Assembly: GCA_001785615.1 (NCBI GenBank)
Contig: MFUG01000003.1
Coordinates: 22,265 to 58,688, forward strand
Source of the DNA: Candidatus Nomurabacteria bacterium RIFCSPHIGHO2_02_FULL_42_19
GTDB taxonomy: Bacteria; Patescibacteriota; Minisyncoccia; Phycocordibacterales; UBA9973
Length of the DNA stretch: 36,424 bases
Direction of reading: 5' to 3'
Shown here: positions 8,519-30,325 of the stretch, piece after piece
Position numbering within the stretch: position 1 is the first letter of the stretch
Layout: every line of letters starts with the position of its first letter
Position numbers and translations under genes: made by a program
The notes under the pieces: model-generated
Databases searched by the model: none
The model's input: only the letters and a program-made list of their open reading frames with translations
What the model was told of the DNA's origin: nothing

Positions 8519-9136
8519 ATGGATTCGATAGAAAAATTGACTGAAATTTTTAAAGAATTTCCCGGCATTGGCGAACGGCAAGCCAGACGCTTCGTCTATT
8601 TCTTGATGGGCAGGAATGGAGGATATGTTGGAAACCTTTCTCAATTAATCACGGACTTGAAAAAAGAAACAGCACAGTGCAAAGAGTGTTTCCGGTTTTT
8701 CAATCTACGCTATAGCGTAGATAAAAAAAACTTATGCGAAATATGCGCTGACAAAAATACTGATCCGGCCCTACTGATGGTGGTAGAGAAGGATTCTGAT
8801 TTTGAGAGTGTAAAGAAAAGCCGGGTGTATCAGGGAAAATATTTTATTCTAGGCGGACTGGTGCCGATAGTGGAAAAAACTACCAAAAGCCGGGTGCGTA
8901 TTGAAGAATTAAAAGCGAAAGTAAAAAACAGTAAGGGATTAAAAGAAATAATTCTTGCCTTTTCCCTAAACCCACAAGGCGACCATACGGACCAATACGT
9001 TCGCGAACAAATAAAAGATATCGCCGAAAAATTCAGCATCAAAATTTCCTCTCTCGGCCGCGGCCTTTCCACCGGCACCGAACTTGAATATTCAGACAAT
9101 GACACTCTCCGAAATGCGTTAAAAAATAGACAATAG
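8519..9136 (+). CDS. recR: Recombination protein
   Basis: FPGIGERQARRFVYFL, CxxC zinc finger, Toprim-like VVEKDSD. Confidence 0.93.
   Translation: MDSIEKLTEIFKEFPGIGERQARRFVYFLMGRNGGYVGNLSQLITDLKKETAQCKECFRFFNLRYSVDKKNLCEICADKNTDPALLMVVEKDSDFESVKKSRVYQGKYFILGGLVPIVEKTTKSRVRIEELKAKVKNSKGLKEIILAFSLNPQGDHTDQYVREQIKDIAEKFSIKISSLGRGLSTGTELEYSDNDTLRNALKNRQ
8703..8722. repeat. ATCTACGCTATAGCGTAGAT palindrome inside recR
   Basis: 20-bp perfect palindrome identical to 22590-22609. Confidence 0.8.
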
Positions 9137-9166
9137 AAATACACAGGCGTTGCCTGTGTATTTCTA
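9134..9166. repeat. REP-like hairpin upstream of the RAYT
   Basis: 15-bp perfect stem TAGAAATACACAGGC / GCCTGTGTATTTCTA with GTT loop. Confidence 0.85.
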
Positions 9167-9183
9167 TATGGTATACTTTAGAT

Positions 9184-9816
9184 ATGTCTTTAAGGAAACA
9201 ATCTTTTGCTGTTGGTGAATTTTATCACTTATATAATCGTGGTACTGAAAAACGAAAAATATTTTCAGATAGGCGGGATTACAATTATCTTCTGTTTTTA
9301 ATGTATATCTGTAATACAAAGAAAAGTATTAAATTAAGAGATGTAAGTAAAAAATTTGATCGCGAAGAAACCATAGTCAATATTGGCGCATACTGTCTAA
9401 TGCCAAACCATTTTCATATACTTATTCACGAAAAAATAGAAGGTGGTATCTCTAAATATATGCTTAAATTAATGACTGGTTATTCAATGTATTTTAATAA
9501 AAAATATAAACGTACTGGAAAATTATATGAGGGCGTATTTAAATCCACTCACCTAAGCACAGATAGATATTTAAAATATATTTACTCTTATATTCATCTT
9601 AATCCCGCTAAACTAATAAGTAAAAACTGGAGAGAAAATAAAAACAGAAATACTGTAAATTTATTAAATTACGTTTTTTCTTATCCATATTCAAGCTTAA
9701 AAGAATATTTAGAAGAAAAATTTAGGGTTATAAATTCTACGCCATTTCCAACTTATTTCAAAAAACCTATGGACCACAAAAGAGAACTTTTTGAATGGCT
9801 TAATTATGAGGGTTAG
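9184..9816 (+). mobile_element. REP-associated tyrosine transposase (RAYT, Y1/IS200-like)
   Basis: FYHLYNRGTEKRKIF, YCLMPNHFHILI (HxH), YIYSYIHLNPAK; flanked by matching hairpins. Confidence 0.93.
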
Positions 9817-9823
9817 GAAATAC

Positions 9824-9850
9824 ATATACATAGGCGTTGCCTGTGTATAT
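9824..9850. repeat. REP-like hairpin downstream of the RAYT
   Basis: 12-bp stem around the same GGC-GTT-GCC tip as 9134-9166. Confidence 0.8.
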
Positions 9851-13265: not shown

Positions 13266-13299
13266 TATCCACATCTACGCCATGGCGTAGATGTGGATA
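13266..13299. repeat. 34-bp perfect palindrome between cysS and metK
   Basis: tatccacatctacgccatggcgtagatgtggata; same core ATCTACGC..GCGTAGAT as 8703 and 22590. Confidence 0.85.
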
Positions 13300-13345: not shown

Positions 13346-14329
13346 TTAATTCTCCCACGGAAAGTCCGGCCGGCCGAAATGGCCCCATTTTGCAGTATCG
13401 GCAAATTTTACATTGTTTAAATTGAGTGTTTTTTTGATTCCTGCGGGACTTAAATCATATCCCTCGATTTTTATTTCTTTGCCATCAAGTACTGCTGTGG
13501 CCATCACCGGTTCGGGTTTGCCAATGGCATAGGCAAGTTTTATGAATACTTCTTTTGCTTTTTTATTTTTTACAAAATCAGCTGCAATCTTCCGCGCCAT
13601 GTAGGCCCCGCTTCTGTCCACTTTAGTATAATCCTTGCCCGAGAAAGAACCTCCGCCGATAGGTATTTCTGGGCCATAATTATCAACAACTATTTTTCTT
13701 CCAGAAAGACCTGTATCAGCATCAAAGCCGCCCAGCATCCACTCGCCCGCTGGATTGATTAAATATTCCTCCGCTTTAATTATATTTTTGACGAAGGGTA
13801 AAAGTTCGCTATTTTTTGAATTCTGGAAACTTACTACCACTGTTTTTATCCCGACGTTAGCAGTCGGGACTCCGACCCCTCCGGGCCTCGGAGCTTTCTC
13901 TTCAATTGTTACCTGCACTTTGCCATCATAAGGATATTTTTCATAAACTTTTTTGCATAAATTTCTGGCAAGTTCGTATTCCAGTGGCATCATATTCGGT
14001 GTTGCGTCTGTGGCATAACCTTTCATTACGCCTTGATCTCCCGCCCCGCCAGTATCAACCCCATGAGCGATGCTTTCACTCTGTTTTGATAATTTTACCG
14101 CAACCTGGAAATTCGCACCTACAATTTTTTTTACAATTGCTTCTATGTCCGGGGTACTTCTACTTGTCACTTCCCCATTTACAGTTATTAAGTTGTGCCC
14201 GCCCATGACCTCTACCGCTACACGGGACTTTTTATCGCCCGCTAAATATGCGTCCAAAATAGAGTCCGCGATAAAATCGCAAATCTTGTCCGGATGACCA
14301 GGACTACAGAACTCCGCCGTCTTAAGCAT
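13346..14329 (-). CDS. metK: S-adenosylmethionine synthetase with in-frame palindrome-encoded APRPGGVGVPTANVG
   Basis: EFCSPGHPDKICDFIADSILDAYL, GAGDQGVMKGYA, GGSFSGKDYTKVDRSGAYMARKIA. Confidence 0.95.
   Translation of the reverse strand: MLKTAEFCSPGHPDKICDFIADSILDAYLAGDKKSRVAVEVMGGHNLITVNGEVTSRSTPDIEAIVKKIVGANFQVAVKLSKQSESIAHGVDTGGAGDQGVMKGYATDATPNMMPLEYELARNLCKKVYEKYPYDGKVQVTIEEKAPRPGGVGVPTANVGIKTVVVSFQNSKNSELLPFVKNIIKAEEYLINPAGEWMLGGFDADTGLSGRKIVVDNYGPEIPIGGGSFSGKDYTKVDRSGAYMARKIAADFVKNKKAKEVFIKLAYAIGKPEPVMATAVLDGKEIKIEGYDLSPAGIKKTLNLNNVKFADTAKWGHFGRPDFPWEN
13850..13894. repeat. In-frame two-hairpin palindromic element in metK
   Basis: cccgacgttagcagtcgggactccgacccctccgggcctcggagc. Confidence 0.8.
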
Positions 14330-14559: not shown

Positions 14560-15678
14560 TTAGATTCCTTCTTTTTTGAGTTCCTCTATGGTTTCGCGGG
14601 CTTTGCGAGAAATTTTACTTGGAAGTTTTATATTTAGTTTAATAAGCAAATCCCCTCTTTTGGTTTTAGAAGTCGGCACGCCTTTCCCGCGCACCCGCAG
14701 TATCTCATTCATGGCGACCCCCTCGGGAATGGTCACTTCGATTGGACCATCCAAGGTTTCTATGGGGTACTTGGTGCCAAGAAGCGCATCCGAGAGTTTC
14801 AAATTCAAATTCATCACTAGGTCGTTACCGTCGCGCTTGAAGATGGCGTGCGGTGTTACGTTTATCTTTATGTAGAGATCGCCCGGAGTCCCTTTGGAAA
14901 TCGCTTCACCCATGCCTGACATCCGAATCATCTCTCCATCGCGAATCCCAACGGGAATAACGATAGAAATTTCCTCTTCCCGACGGAGCACTCCTTTGCC
15001 TTTGCATTTTTCGCAGAGTTCTTTCGGTGCTTCCCCCGCACCGTGACATTCTTCACAAACTTTAGTGCTAGAAATTGCTCCAAGGAAGGACCTCTTCGTC
15101 TCGCGAATTGTACCCTGCCCATTACAACGTTTGCAGGTTACCATGGTGAAACCAGCTTTCGCACCAGTGCCATTACAAGTCAAACAGTTAGATGTCTTGG
15201 TAATTAAAATTTTTCTATTCAAGCCGAAAATAGCATCAAGAAAGGAAATGGTAATTTCGGTAGAGATATCCCGTCCTCGGCGTGCTTGGGTCCGCCCTCC
15301 CCCCATTCCGCCAGTAAAAAAATCGCTAAAGATATCGTTTAAATTACCAAAATCAAAATTTATATTACCGTCTGCCTGTCCGCCTCTGGCGGAAAATCCG
15401 TCAGTAAAATTAGAAAAGTCAAAACCCTCAAAGCCGCTTGCGCTCTGTCCTCCATATCCGCCCATATTCTCATAAGTAGACCCGAATTGGTCATATTTTG
15501 AGCGCTTGCCGTCATCCGAGAGCACTTGATAGGCCTCGTTCACTTCCTTGAACCTCGTTTCATTGCCCTCCTTTTTATCAGGGTGATATTTGTGCGCCAG
15601 CTTATAAAAGGCCTTCTTTATTTCGTCCTTGGAAGCGCCTTTATTTACTCCTAATATATTGTAATAATCTTTTGACAT
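14560..15678 (-). CDS. dnaJ: Molecular chaperone DnaJ
   Basis: KDYYNILGVNKGASKDEIKKAFYKLAHKYHPDK, four CxxCxGxG-type motifs. Confidence 0.97.
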   Translation of the reverse strand: MSKDYYNILGVNKGASKDEIKKAFYKLAHKYHPDKKEGNETRFKEVNEAYQVLSDDGKRSKYDQFGSTYENMGGYGGQSASGFEGFDFSNFTDGFSARGGQADGNINFDFGNLNDIFSDFFTGGMGGGRTQARRGRDISTEITISFLDAIFGLNRKILITKTSNCLTCNGTGAKAGFTMVTCKRCNGQGTIRETKRSFLGAISSTKVCEECHGAGEAPKELCEKCKGKGVLRREEEISIVIPVGIRDGEMIRMSGMGEAISKGTPGDLYIKINVTPHAIFKRDGNDLVMNLNLKLSDALLGTKYPIETLDGPIEVTIPEGVAMNEILRVRGKGVPTSKTKRGDLLIKLNIKLPSKISRKARETIEELKKEGI

Positions 15679-15685
15679 AAATTAA

Positions 15686-15793
15686 AGGAATAGAATATTG
15701 TTATTTACGGGTCTTTCGCAGGGCGACGGCCCGAGAATGAGCAAATTTTCAGCAGAAAATTATGCGACCCGGAAATAATTGTATTCTATTCCT
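15686..15793 (+). repeat. Structured hairpin element upstream of dnaJ (copy 1)
   Basis: 28-bp imperfect arms 15686-15713 / 15766-15793 enclosing core gcagggcgacggcccgagaatgagcaaattttcagcagaaaattatgcg. Confidence 0.85.
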
Positions 15794-15795
15794 AA

Positions 15796-17331
15796 TCATA
15801 TCATGGGCTCGGCTTCTTGGGAAGTTTCTCCTTTTTTCCCGACGCTCTGATTACTATCAGAGATCGGGACTCCGACCCCTTCGGGCGTCGGAGCTTCTAC
15901 CTCTCCTTTTTCTTTGGCTTTTCTTTTTGCCCGGCCTTCAATAATCGCTTTCTCTTCCGCGCTCCTTATGATGGTCGCCTCTTCTTCCGCAATAAGTTTA
16001 GCCGCATCGTCTTTCGGGATTGAATATTTCCGACGAGAGGCCTCGATGATTTCTTTTTTATAGGAAAGATGCGTTGAGGGCAGAACCTTCAGTGTCTCCG
16101 CGGAAAAAGGGTCGTAGGATTCTCCATCTATGGTCATCTTGATATAGAATTCCGTGACCGCCAAATTAATCATATCTTTAACATCGAACAAGGGCGCGAA
16201 TTCCGGTTTTAATTTTACTGCATCTTCACCCCCCACCCGAAAAGTAATGATGCTTCCGGTATTTCCTAAGACCGCGTGCTGAACCTGCGGAATAAGCTGG
16301 CCGATATATTGGTGAGCGATGGTAAGGTTGAGCGCGTATTTGCGGGCTTCCGATAAAATATTTTCAAAGGTCTGGGTAACGATATTATGAAACTCGTCAA
16401 TGTAGAGATAGAAGTCCTTGCGCTCCGCTTCGGGAATCGCGGCCCGTTCCATTCCGGCTTGTTTTATTTTAGTCAAGAACATTGAGCCGAAGAAAGAAGA
16501 ATTTTCTTCTCCAATGCGTCCTTTGGAAAGGTTGATGAGGACAATTTTCTCTTCATTCATCAGTTTACTGATGTCTATTTTATTTTGCTTTTGGCCGAAG
16601 ATGTTGCGGAGCAAGGGGTCGGAGAGGAACTGTCCGAGTTTATTGACTAAAGGAATTATCGCGTCCGTGTCGAACTTTTCCGACCAGTCGGCGAATTCTA
16701 TAGCGAAGAATCTTTTCACCATGTCATCCGTAATATACTCCACCACTTTCTGCCGGTAATTTCTGTCCGTCAGCATTGAAATCATTCCACGCATGGTGGC
16801 GTGCGGATAGTCGAGGAGTGCCAAACAAGTAAAACGGAAAACGTGCTCCAAGCGCGGGGTCCAATTGGCTCCGAATTGCTTCTCTAAAACCTCAATTAAT
16901 CCCTGGGTCAGCTGAAACTTAAACAATGGATCAACGTTGGCCAGTGGATTGAAAGATGCGGGGAAATTAACGTCTGACGGGTCAATAATACAAACATCTT
17001 CAATGCGTTCTTTGGGAATAAAATCCAGGATCGCCTCCATCACATCGCCGTGCGGATCAATAAAACACAGGCCGTGGCCGTAGCTTATATCCTGCCGAAT
17101 TAAAAGCTCCAATAACTTTGATTTGCCGACGCCTGACTTCCCAACAATATAAAGATGTCGGCGACGATCTATCCGCTTGATGCCGAAAATAAATTTCTTT
17201 TCTTCCAGCGCCGCGACATAATTTGTCCGTCCGATGAAGGATGTTTCCGCTGGGTCTACCCGGCCAAAGACCGGCAACTCCGGCGGAGGCGGACCGTATT
17301 TTATTAGTTGCACTCTATTCGGCTTGGACAT
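15796..17331 (-). CDS. VirD4/TraD-like type IV secretion/conjugation ATPase
   Basis: HLYIVGKSGVGKSKLLE Walker A, CFIDPHGDVMEAIL, FYLYIDEFHNIVT Walker B, LNLTIAHQYIGQL. Confidence 0.88.
   Translation of the reverse strand: MSKPNRVQLIKYGPPPPELPVFGRVDPAETSFIGRTNYVAALEEKKFIFGIKRIDRRRHLYIVGKSGVGKSKLLELLIRQDISYGHGLCFIDPHGDVMEAILDFIPKERIEDVCIIDPSDVNFPASFNPLANVDPLFKFQLTQGLIEVLEKQFGANWTPRLEHVFRFTCLALLDYPHATMRGMISMLTDRNYRQKVVEYITDDMVKRFFAIEFADWSEKFDTDAIIPLVNKLGQFLSDPLLRNIFGQKQNKIDISKLMNEEKIVLINLSKGRIGEENSSFFGSMFLTKIKQAGMERAAIPEAERKDFYLYIDEFHNIVTQTFENILSEARKYALNLTIAHQYIGQLIPQVQHAVLGNTGSIITFRVGGEDAVKLKPEFAPLFDVKDMINLAVTEFYIKMTIDGESYDPFSAETLKVLPSTHLSYKKEIIEASRRKYSIPKDDAAKLIAEEEATIIRSAEEKAIIEGRAKRKAKEKGEVEAPTPEGVGVPISDSNQSVGKKGETSQEAEPMI
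15838..15896. repeat. In-frame two-hairpin palindromic element in the TraD-like gene (encodes APTPEGVGVPISDSNQSV)
   Basis: cccgacgctctgattactatcagagatcgggactccgaccccttcgggcgtcggagc. Confidence 0.8.
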
Positions 17332-22567: not shown

Positions 22568-22589
22568 AATTTAGATACAAACATTTTTC

Positions 22590-22609
22590 ATCTACGCTAT
22601 AGCGTAGAT
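22590..22609. repeat. ATCTACGCTATAGCGTAGAT palindrome
   Basis: 20-bp perfect palindrome, identical to that inside recR. Confidence 0.85.
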
Positions 22610-22752
22610 TGATATTATAGCAAGAAATTGCGCAAGTCGCGCAAGAACGGTTCTTGCGCAATTAAAATTAAAAACCTTTGTATTCATTTTGGCTTTTTAG
22701 ACCTGTGGATAACTCCCCTTGCTTTTTAAAATGGTTATGCTACCCTAGGGGC

Positions 22753-23432: not shown

Positions 23433-25349
23433 TTATGCCTTTGGTGCTTCGCCTTCGTTTTTTGGTTTCTCTTTGAATTCCGCGTCTTTGGGTTCTTGCC
23501 CTGAGCTTGTCGAAGGGTTGTCCTGCCCGCCTCCTGCGGATTCGGGTGAACTCTTTTGAATCGCCTCTCCTATTTTAGACATTTCGGTAGAAAGTTCTTC
23601 AGTCGCTTTCTTGATTGCTTCCACATCTGTACCGTCTTTTACCCCACGAAGAGCAGTTATTTTCATATTTACCGTATCTTTCAATTCTTGAGGAATTTTT
23701 GCTTCATTATCTTTTATTGCTTTCTCGGCAGTGTAAATTATCATCTCTCCAGTATTGCGCACATCCGCACTTTCCTTTTTCTTTTTATCTTCCTCTGCAT
23801 GAAGTTCCGCGTCCGCCTGCATCTTTTTAATTTCATCTTCTTTCAGGCCAGAACTTGCTTCTATTTTTATTGACTGCGTTTTGCCAGAGGTCTTATCCTT
23901 CGCGGTCACATTTAAGATTCCATTCGCATCCACATCAAAGGAAACTTCGATTTGCGGCATACCGCGAGGGGCGGGAGGAACACCGTCCAGAATAAATCTA
24001 CCCAGGGATTTATTGTCAGAGGCCATCGGGCGCTCGCCTTGAACTATGTGAATCTCCACCGAGGTTTGATTGTCTGCCGCGGTTGAGAATACTTGGGATT
24101 TGTGTGAAGGAATGGTTGTATTTCTTTCAATAAGCTTGGTGCCCACTCCACCGAGCGTTTCAATGCCAAGTGATAGGGGGATAACATCTAAAAGTAAAAC
24201 ATCGCGCACGTCGCCCTGGAGCACTCCTGCCTGCACTGCGGCGCCGAGAGCCACCACTTCATCCGGATTGATGGAAAGGTTCGGGGTTTTGCCGAAGATC
24301 TTTTTCACTTCTTCCACAATCTTGGGCATTCTTGTCTGCCCGCCCACCATGATGATTTCATTCATGTCTTCAATCTTGAATCCGGAGGCACTCATCGCGC
24401 GCTTGGTGATCTCGACCGAGCGAGAAACATATTCGTCCGCAATTGATTCCAGTTGGGCGCGAGTCATTTTAAGTAGCAAGTGTTGGGGGCCTTGTGCGGT
24501 AGAAGTAATGAAAGGAATATTTATTTCTGTTTCAACTGCGGTAGAGAGTTCAATCTTCGCTTTTTCCGCCGCTTCGTCTAGGCGCTGGAGTGCCAGCTTG
24601 TCAGTACGTACATCCACTCCAGAGGTCTTTTTAAATTCTTCCGCGATCCAGCCGATAATCTTGTGGTCAATGTCGCGGCCTCCTAGGTGGCTGTCCCCAT
24701 CGGTGGACTTCACTTCTATAACGTCGTCCCCTATTTCAAGTACCGATACGTCGAAAGTTCCGCCTCCGAAGTCGTAGACGACTATTTTTTCATTTTTCTT
24801 TTTATTAAATCCGTAAGCAAGCGCCGCCGCGGTGGGCTCGTTGATAATACGCTTTACATCGAGGCCGGCAATCTGCCCTGCATCCTTCGTTGCCTTTCTT
24901 TGCGCATCGTTGAAATACGCCGGCACAGTGATGACTGCTTCAGTAATCTTAACTCCGAGCTTCGCTTCCACGTCGGATTTTATTTTTGACAGAATCATGG
25001 CGGACACTTCTTCCGGACGCATCCATTTTTCTCCAATCTTCACTTCCACTCCGCCCGTAGCTCCCTTCTGAATTTTGAAAGATGCATTCTTCAAGTCCTT
25101 CTGCACTTCTGGATCGTCAAAGTTGTGGCCCATAAAACGCTTGATGCCGTAAACAGTGTTTTCTGGGTTGGTGACTGCCTGACGCTTGGCAAGGAGCCCT
25201 ACTAGTCGGTCGCCATTTTTAGCAACGGCTACCACTGAAGGTGTAGTTCTATTACCCTCCACATTTTCAATAATTTTCGGCTGTCCACCCTCTATAACTG
25301 CCACTGCCGAATTTGTTGTACCTAAGTCAATTCCTATAATTTTTGCCAT
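23433..25349 (-). CDS. dnaK: Molecular chaperone DnaK
   Basis: [45 protein letters not shown]-terminal [10 protein letters not shown] from repeat. Confidence 0.98.
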
Positions 25350-25382: not shown

Positions 25383-25497
25383 AATGAAATAAATTAGTTG
25401 TTTGGAAAAGCCATACGTAGGCCGACGGGCCGAAGTCCTGAGCAAATTTTCAGCAGAAAATTATGCGTGCTTTTCCAAACAACTAATTTATTTTATT
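25383..25497 (+). repeat. Structured hairpin element upstream of dnaK (copy 2)
   Basis: 29-bp arms (one G-T pair) 25383-25411 / 25469-25497 enclosing a core sharing gagcaaattttcagcagaaaattatgcg with copy 1. Confidence 0.88.
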
Positions 25498-25580
25498 ATA
25501 TACCAAGTCAATTATTTTTGCAAGTTTTTCGTGGTCGCGAACTACTTGTCAAAAGGTAATATATATTATAATATAGGGGT

Positions 25581-29657: not shown

Positions 29658-29694
29658 ACATAACGCTTTATCGCGATCGCGAAATTATGTTATG
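29614..29694. repeat. 81-bp perfect direct repeat, copy 2 (leader plus 5' end of paralog 3)
   Basis: See 27920-28000. Confidence 0.95.
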
Positions 29695-30325
29695 TTGCGT
29701 TTGAGTCCTTATACTCATACACATTCACCCGCGCGGGGCGGATAACTCGCTCGCCTAGTTTGTAGCCCTTTTGAATTACGGCAGCCAGTTTGTGATTATT
29801 TTCTTTTTTATCGGTCACCACCACATCTATGGACTGATGCATGTTGGGATCAAAGTCCTCCCCCGCCTCGCCTATGGCTTTCACTCCATATTCTTCAAAA
29901 ATTCCACTCATCTGCGCGTAAATGTACTCTACACCTTTGCGCCAGCTTGGCTCCACCTTATCCCAGGCCTCACGATTAGCGAAGGCAATATTAAAACTAT
30001 CCATCACGGTCAAGAACCGCGCCAGAATCCGCTCGCGCATGGCCTCGGAAAATAGCGTTTTTCGGTTATCTTCTTCTTTTTTGTAATTAGCAAAGTCCGC
30101 TCGCTCCTTCTGCCAGCCAAGCAAATATTCTTCTTTTTCTTTCTTGGCCTGCTTTAAATCTGCCCTTAATTTCTTAAGGGTCTTCTTCAGGTCCTCTTCC
30201 CCGTCGTCGTTAAATTCAAATTCCACTATTTCCTCATCATCGTTCTCGACGCTCTCCGAGGTCGGGACTCCGATCCCTTCGGGCGTCGGAGCTTCCTTTT
30301 CTTTTTTCTCAGGTTCATCTGCCAT
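29690..30325 (-). CDS. grpE: Nucleotide exchange factor GrpE with in-frame APTPEGIGVPTSESV
   Basis: LGWQKERADFANYKKEEDN, GVKAIGEAGEDFDPNMHQSI, YKLGERVIRPARVNV. Confidence 0.95.
   Translation of the reverse strand: MADEPEKKEKEAPTPEGIGVPTSESVENDDEEIVEFEFNDDGEEDLKKTLKKLRADLKQAKKEKEEYLLGWQKERADFANYKKEEDNRKTLFSEAMRERILARFLTVMDSFNIAFANREAWDKVEPSWRKGVEYIYAQMSGIFEEYGVKAIGEAGEDFDPNMHQSIDVVVTDKKENNHKLAAVIQKGYKLGERVIRPARVNVYEYKDSNAT
30245..30294. repeat. In-frame palindromic element in grpE
   Basis: ctcgacgctctccgaggtcgggactccgatcccttcgggcgtcggagc. Confidence 0.8.

Follow-up and report, generated by a model that had tools for sequence, protein, structure and literature searches.

The sequence that separates dnaJ from its upstream neighbour in Candidatus Nomurabacteria bacterium RIFCSPHIGHO2_02_FULL_42_19 appears to be a copy of a mobile DNA element of Paceibacteria, small and non-autonomous. 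We propose, with a probability of about 60%, that a two-hairpin core of ~62 nt is mobile and that each insertion has arms of its own, 18–30 bp long, made by snap-back copying. The hosts are ultra-small Patescibacteria, in which the element is found both between and inside essential genes with the reading frame unbroken. What is new with respect to known palindromes is the combination of a conserved core and arms specific to the locus. The coordinates below refer to the window, the whole stretch of 36,424 nt analysed (contig MFUG01000003.1, positions 22,265 to 58,688).

The element at dnaJ and its copy at dnaK

The complete element lies on the minus strand at 15686..15793, as judged from its inverted repeat and fold and from its absence in relatives (L408, L409, L411 and L417). 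The start codon of dnaJ (14560..15678, minus strand) is 7 nt past the element, and the stop codon of the upstream gene, which encodes a HerA/T4SS coupling-type ATPase (15796..17331, minus strand), is 2 nt from it; nearly all of the 117 nt between that stop and the dnaJ start is thus taken up by the element. The original prediction, made from the letters of the window, of two 28 nt arms was confirmed by inverted-repeat search and by own-locus versus cross-locus pairing: the 5′ arm (15766..15793, minus strand) and the 3′ arm (15686..15713, minus strand) are 86% complementary. The conserved core of 63 nt (15708..15770, minus strand) was the top copy of the genus scan with covariance model R1, at 83.9 bits. 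Its internal helices, read on the minus strand, on which dnaJ lies, were also as predicted. The P3 hairpin AATTTTC-TGCT-GAAAATT (15744..15761, minus strand) was paired in 99.8% of alignment cells, with 6/7 pairs covarying, and the P2 hairpin GGGC-CGTC-GCCC (15721..15732, minus strand) in 97.7%, with 4/4 pairs covarying. P1′, in which CGCA (15763..15766, minus strand) pairs with TGCG (15717..15720, minus strand) beside an AAAG bulge, was recovered in the covariation alignment with weaker support (80% of cells paired). The folding energy of the element was −27.2 kcal/mol as DNA and −42.6 kcal/mol as RNA, with a z-score of −8 in either case, and 0 of 200 shuffled sequences equalled it.

The predicted recurrence of the core at dnaK was borne out by a second copy in the window (25383..25497, minus strand), situated between a −10-like TATAAT (25495–25500) and the start of dnaK (23433..25349, minus strand). 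Its core (25407..25471, minus strand) scored 76.3 bits with the covariance model, and its inverted repeat of 29 nt (25383–25411/25469–25497) is 97% complementary, with an arm sequence unlike that of the dnaJ copy. Between the arms of either copy, read on the minus strand, come CATAATTTTCTGCTGAAAATTTGCTC and then a short GC hairpin whose loop is CGTC. The same genome carries 10 copies as detected by BLAST, and 12–14 with covariance model R1, so the dnaJ and dnaK copies are not a pair.

Other repeats were observed in the window. The repeat CGGGACTCCGACCCCTTCGGGCGTCGGAGC occurs at 13854–13912, 15854–15912 and 30252–30310, inside three open reading frames (SAM synthetase, the ATPase upstream of dnaJ and ORF 29690–30325), and is also present in relatives of the gene upstream of dnaJ. 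Another palindrome family, TCTACGCTATAGCGTAGAT, is found at 8700–8728, 22584–22612 and 13267–13292. At 25521–25550, beside a divergent PaaX-like gene, there is a motif, ACAAGTnnTTCGCGgtCGCGAA, that is conserved upstream of dnaK in the relatives examined and is possibly an operator.

Distribution of the element

Copies were detected with covariance model R1 in 77 of 80 genomes of the genus, at 1–30 per genome, and with a covariance model in 22 of 294 genomes of a phylum-wide sample. The hundreds of copies recovered set aside the outcome in which the search would return two copies lacking covariation. Matches in a pattern scan of GTDB were titled Nomura-, Kaiser-, Yonath-, Zambryski-, Vogel-, Taylor-, Adler- and Wildermuthbacteria, the remaining titles being generic Parcubacteria/Patescibacteria and bins; nearly all are Parcubacteria/Paceibacteria groups. 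A scan of IMG/VR gave 0 exact matches to the core pattern, on which a reading as viral cargo was rejected. A match to Rfam had been named beforehand as a refutation; with Rfam 15 there was no covariance-model match above threshold, and no known RNA family fits. No described Patescibacteria palindrome resembling the element was found in the openly licensed literature.

Two sets of records call for care. L174 (JAMPXW010000005.1), titled Burkholderiales, has the element at the coordinates and with the score of genus genome G028, and its title is probably wrong. L095 (genome G070) and L099 (G030) match at 100% identity across the element and 1.2 kb of flanking sequence, although the genomes differ elsewhere (66–69% at iscS); this is probably binning contamination, and such identity makes the two unusable as an ortholog pair.

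Structure and covariation of the core

The core consists of two hairpins with near-constant loops, TGCT and CGTC. Covariation was assessed over 15 pairs in an alignment of 87 distinct copies, in which 94.1% of pair cells held standard pairs and 12 of the 15 pairs had changed on both sides. The covariation score was 0.448, as against 0.123 after shuffling and at most 0.075 with partners slid, in an alignment that was fitted to the model and so leans towards it. Swaps in P2 and P3 can, however, be recognised by simple inspection of ten early copies of the alignment, the first ten, and the copies in TsaD include a variant in which the P3 stem has a wholly different sequence around an unchanged TGCT loop. 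Evolution of the core thus keeps its structure.

Changes in the core stems comprised 217 double-changed cells, 35 A.C and 10 G.T. In the outer arms, G.T (~18) and A.C (~20) were equally rare, so there is no G.U-wobble signature. An excess of A.C in the arms had suggested a minus-strand RNA; it stemmed from the semi-conserved inner arm (positions 10–17) and vanishes in the outer arms. The near-absence of G.T changes, together with the occurrence of both orientations in genes, favours an element acting at the level of DNA, and the structured RNA of the original prediction need not be RNA.

The strong covariation and fold, and the sense orientation of the element in several 5′ leaders (dnaJ, dnaK, yqeY and prfA), are what would be expected of a structured RNA that acts in cis, as a thermosensor or in the manner of a riboswitch, to control dnaJ, dnaK and other genes. 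We consider this most improbable, since the copies occur in both orientations, within coding genes, patchily at each locus and beside unrelated host genes, with almost no G.U pairs and with palindromes of other families at those sites. A heat-shock or other regulatory RNA was rejected for the copies at unrelated genes and in both orientations.

Copies inside genes

About one quarter of copies lie in frame within genes, in both orientations. Among 77 copies on long loci, tested for an open frame (≥150 aa) that stays open for ≥110 nt to either side, 22 were genic (15 sense, 7 antisense), two of which (L048 and L077) look spurious. The host genes, as identified with NCBIfam, were tsaD, dusB-like, pcrA, pheT, rsmE, iscS/nifS, fmt, mnmA and glmM. 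Frames of the Dus matches in the genus were open and free of stops; for TsaD, one genome (G061) carried a double insertion with a broken frame. Inverted pairs of elements ~50–60 nt apart were seen at L044, L060 and L081, two of them within tsaD, and the tsaD of L011 has a second, different palindromic in-frame insertion at residues ~92–121.

Several unrelated palindromic families were observed at the same spots as the element: at dus (L103–L132), at tsaD (L248–L277), in the yqeY leader (L278–L307) and at L348–L356. Cores of these families, for example TCCGGATTACTCC...GGAACCTTCCCCG and CGCCCGAGGGTCCCA...AAGGGCGCAGGG, likewise have locus-specific arms, and a core within arms peculiar to its locus may be a general phenomenon.

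The arms are specific to each locus

When the 5′ and 3′ flanks of 148 distinct copies were paired within and across loci, own-locus arms paired over a median of 23 bp (score 15.5) and cross-locus arms over ~0 bp (median score 0.5). The arms are therefore locus-specific and self-complementary around a conserved structured core, as had been predicted from the copies at dnaJ and dnaK. Nearly all copies stand in a long hairpin of this kind, which suggests an unusual mode of insertion. Arms are not always new, as some subfamilies have arm modules in common, e.g. AAACTCTTTCTTGGCATAC...GTACGCCTGCGACGAGTTT.

These data bear on a different explanation, in which the hairpin and its arms move as one unit. 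The arms would then drift, with complementarity maintained by quasi-palindrome correction (template switching) or by selection for a hairpin, and selection or gene conversion would keep the cores alike. The arms of orthologous copies at yqeY, iscS, pheT and dus have diverged and are still complementary, which indicates that co-evolution or correction by template switching also acts at a later stage, and in another palindromic family at yqeY an arm has undergone a double change from G:C to T:A (L279/L281). Within genome G022, however, an identical core of 64 nt is present in four copies with four unrelated pairs of arms. Likewise, in the ortholog pair L068/L069 the arms and core are 100% identical amid flanks that have diverged by 12–16% (84–88% identity), so the arms are not simply fast-evolving. 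Movement of the hairpin together with its arms is accordingly unlikely, with somewhat better than one chance in five left to it.

Empty sites

Relatives lacking the element were found at several loci. At dnaJ, the gap between the two genes is ~7–16 nt in four relatives (L408, L409, L411 and L417) and holds no hairpin. In nine relatives, a few bases separate the −10 box of yqeY from the start codon; in the filled ones, the element sits between the two. The spacer was short in empty orthologs at prs-aspS, recR-rplU and others, the hairpin of the element being absent at recR-rplU also, and at mreC-tgt the stop and start of empty relatives overlap or nearly touch. No direct target-site duplication was apparent at filled/empty pairs, in which the relatives are ~70–80% identical. 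The element is mobile, as the dispersed copies and empty sites demonstrate.

The original prediction placed the element within the loop of long hairpins, which describes its present state. As a history it fared less well: empty orthologous hairpins were sought, and none comparable was seen at dnaJ, yqeY, prs-aspS or mreC-tgt. Insertion of the core into pre-existing hairpins such as transcription terminators would account for the several copies that lie past stop codons with terminator-like arms (L342) and for the short native terminators of some empty orthologs (two at recR-rplU, L365 and L366), and copies with a common arm module suggest nesting. Against it, the four loci just named and most empties at the L341 locus lack a comparable hairpin and often the space to hold one, and many copies are in coding loops or between a −10 box and a start codon. 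The element thus did not land in hairpins already there, an origin that we rate as very improbable; the hairpin is either brought by the element or formed along with it.

Origin of the arms

In several cases an arm could be matched to its own flank. At mreC-tgt in G008, G030 and G064, the arm on the tgt side is the reverse complement of the stop region and/or tail of the same species' mreC; the opposite orientation of the G008 copy marks it as an independent insertion. Against this case, the native state of each tail was deduced from relatives of ~70% identity, and four filled species have tails of five residues, where the empties have mostly one to four. At prs-aspS, the native end of prs forms the end of one arm, and the opposite arm is its inverse. 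In the TsaD of the genome under study, the residues encoded by the 3′ arm align to solved TsaD proteins, and the 5′ arm, within a 28-residue insert relative to these proteins, is the inverse of the aligning codons. An inverse of the TATAAT box lies on the 3′ side at yqeY (L292) and at dnaK, and arm pairing reaches at least 6 columns into the stop and coding sequence at 34 of 117 gene ends near copies.

These matches fit inverted copying of the target flank, by which the arms are probably made anew at each insertion. The 28 nt arms at dnaJ cannot be traced to their flanks, given the ~7–16 nt in empty relatives; inverted copying leaves this locus unexplained, the native spacer being too short as a source unless it was formerly longer. 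That the element inserts its core only and builds the flanking hairpin as an inverted copy of the target flank, an inverted target duplication, is a tentative proposal to which we give slightly less than an even chance. To our knowledge, such a transposition signature is not known from described elements.

In the mechanism that we envisage, a single-stranded core would join the target strand at or beside a short T-tract. The A-rich 3′ end of the core would snap back on this tract and prime copying of the adjacent target strand by enzymes of the host or of other origin. The product would be target, core and inverted copy of target, that is, a long hairpin around the core. The TTTT/AAAA that is constant beside the core in the most recent subfamily could represent the T-tract pairing. 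Surviving insertions lie in intergenic gaps, between −10 box and start codon, just past stop codons and, in frame, in tolerant protein loops.

Search for a mobiliser

A RAYT-like Y1 transposase gene is present in the window (9184–9816, plus strand), flanked by palindromes of its own at 9120–9180 and 9820–9848 (TACACAGGC...GCCTGTGTA). Mobilisation of a REP-like element by RAYT, with this gene as the candidate, could draw on its presence in the window (NF047646, below cut-off) and on the occurrence of Y1 genes in 55 of the 80 genus genomes. Yet the 25 genomes without Y1 average 7.6 copies and include G022 with its identical recent cores, whereas G001 has 11 Y1 genes and zero copies. Y1 gene number and copy number are uncorrelated (Spearman 0.12, P = 0.27), which disfavours RAYT as the sole mobiliser and leaves a REP-like origin only a very slim chance. 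Comparison of Y1/RAYT gene number with copy number across the 80 genomes thus identified no dedicated transposase, and no parent transposon was found.

Comparison with known systems

CGTC- and GTAG-tagged REPs are short palindromes that also occur within genes, with the tag at one end of a short stem (8–9 bp for CGTC), and CGTC families lack an associated transposase gene (PMC3733652). In the present element, CGTC is instead the loop of P2, one of two inner hairpins within long arms, and is not an end tag. It differs also from RAYT-mobilised REPs, its copy number in the 80 genomes showing no association with Y1 genes.

Like MITEs, the element is small and non-autonomous and has inverted ends; unlike those of MITEs, these ends are mostly not common to copies, apart from the arm modules of some subfamilies. 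Quasi-palindrome template-switch mutation yields inverted copies of nearby sequence, and to that extent resembles what is seen here, but it is a mutation process without a conserved mobile core.

In function and habit we read the element as working like the palindromic elements of Rickettsia (RPE; also the WPE of Wolbachia). These are dispersed palindromes of ~100–150 bp, both intergenic and in frame in conserved protein genes, belonging to several unrelated families and described as families of repeat sequences with terminal inverted repeats (PMC10969869, PMC2229807, PMC3767692). The likeness, drawn from the published descriptions, lies in a palindrome of 108–115 bp forming a long hairpin and in the in-frame insertions in conserved protein genes. 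In-frame palindromic insertions resembling those of Rickettsia are widespread in the streamlined Patescibacteria genomes as well, in genes for tRNA modification, translation and repair; odd loops in Patescibacteria proteins and apparent 5′-leader RNA structures can be insertions of such elements. The present element differs from RPEs in its phylum, in genic copies that are read in both orientations, and in a conserved centre with locus-specific arms, which offer a handle on how such palindromes insert.
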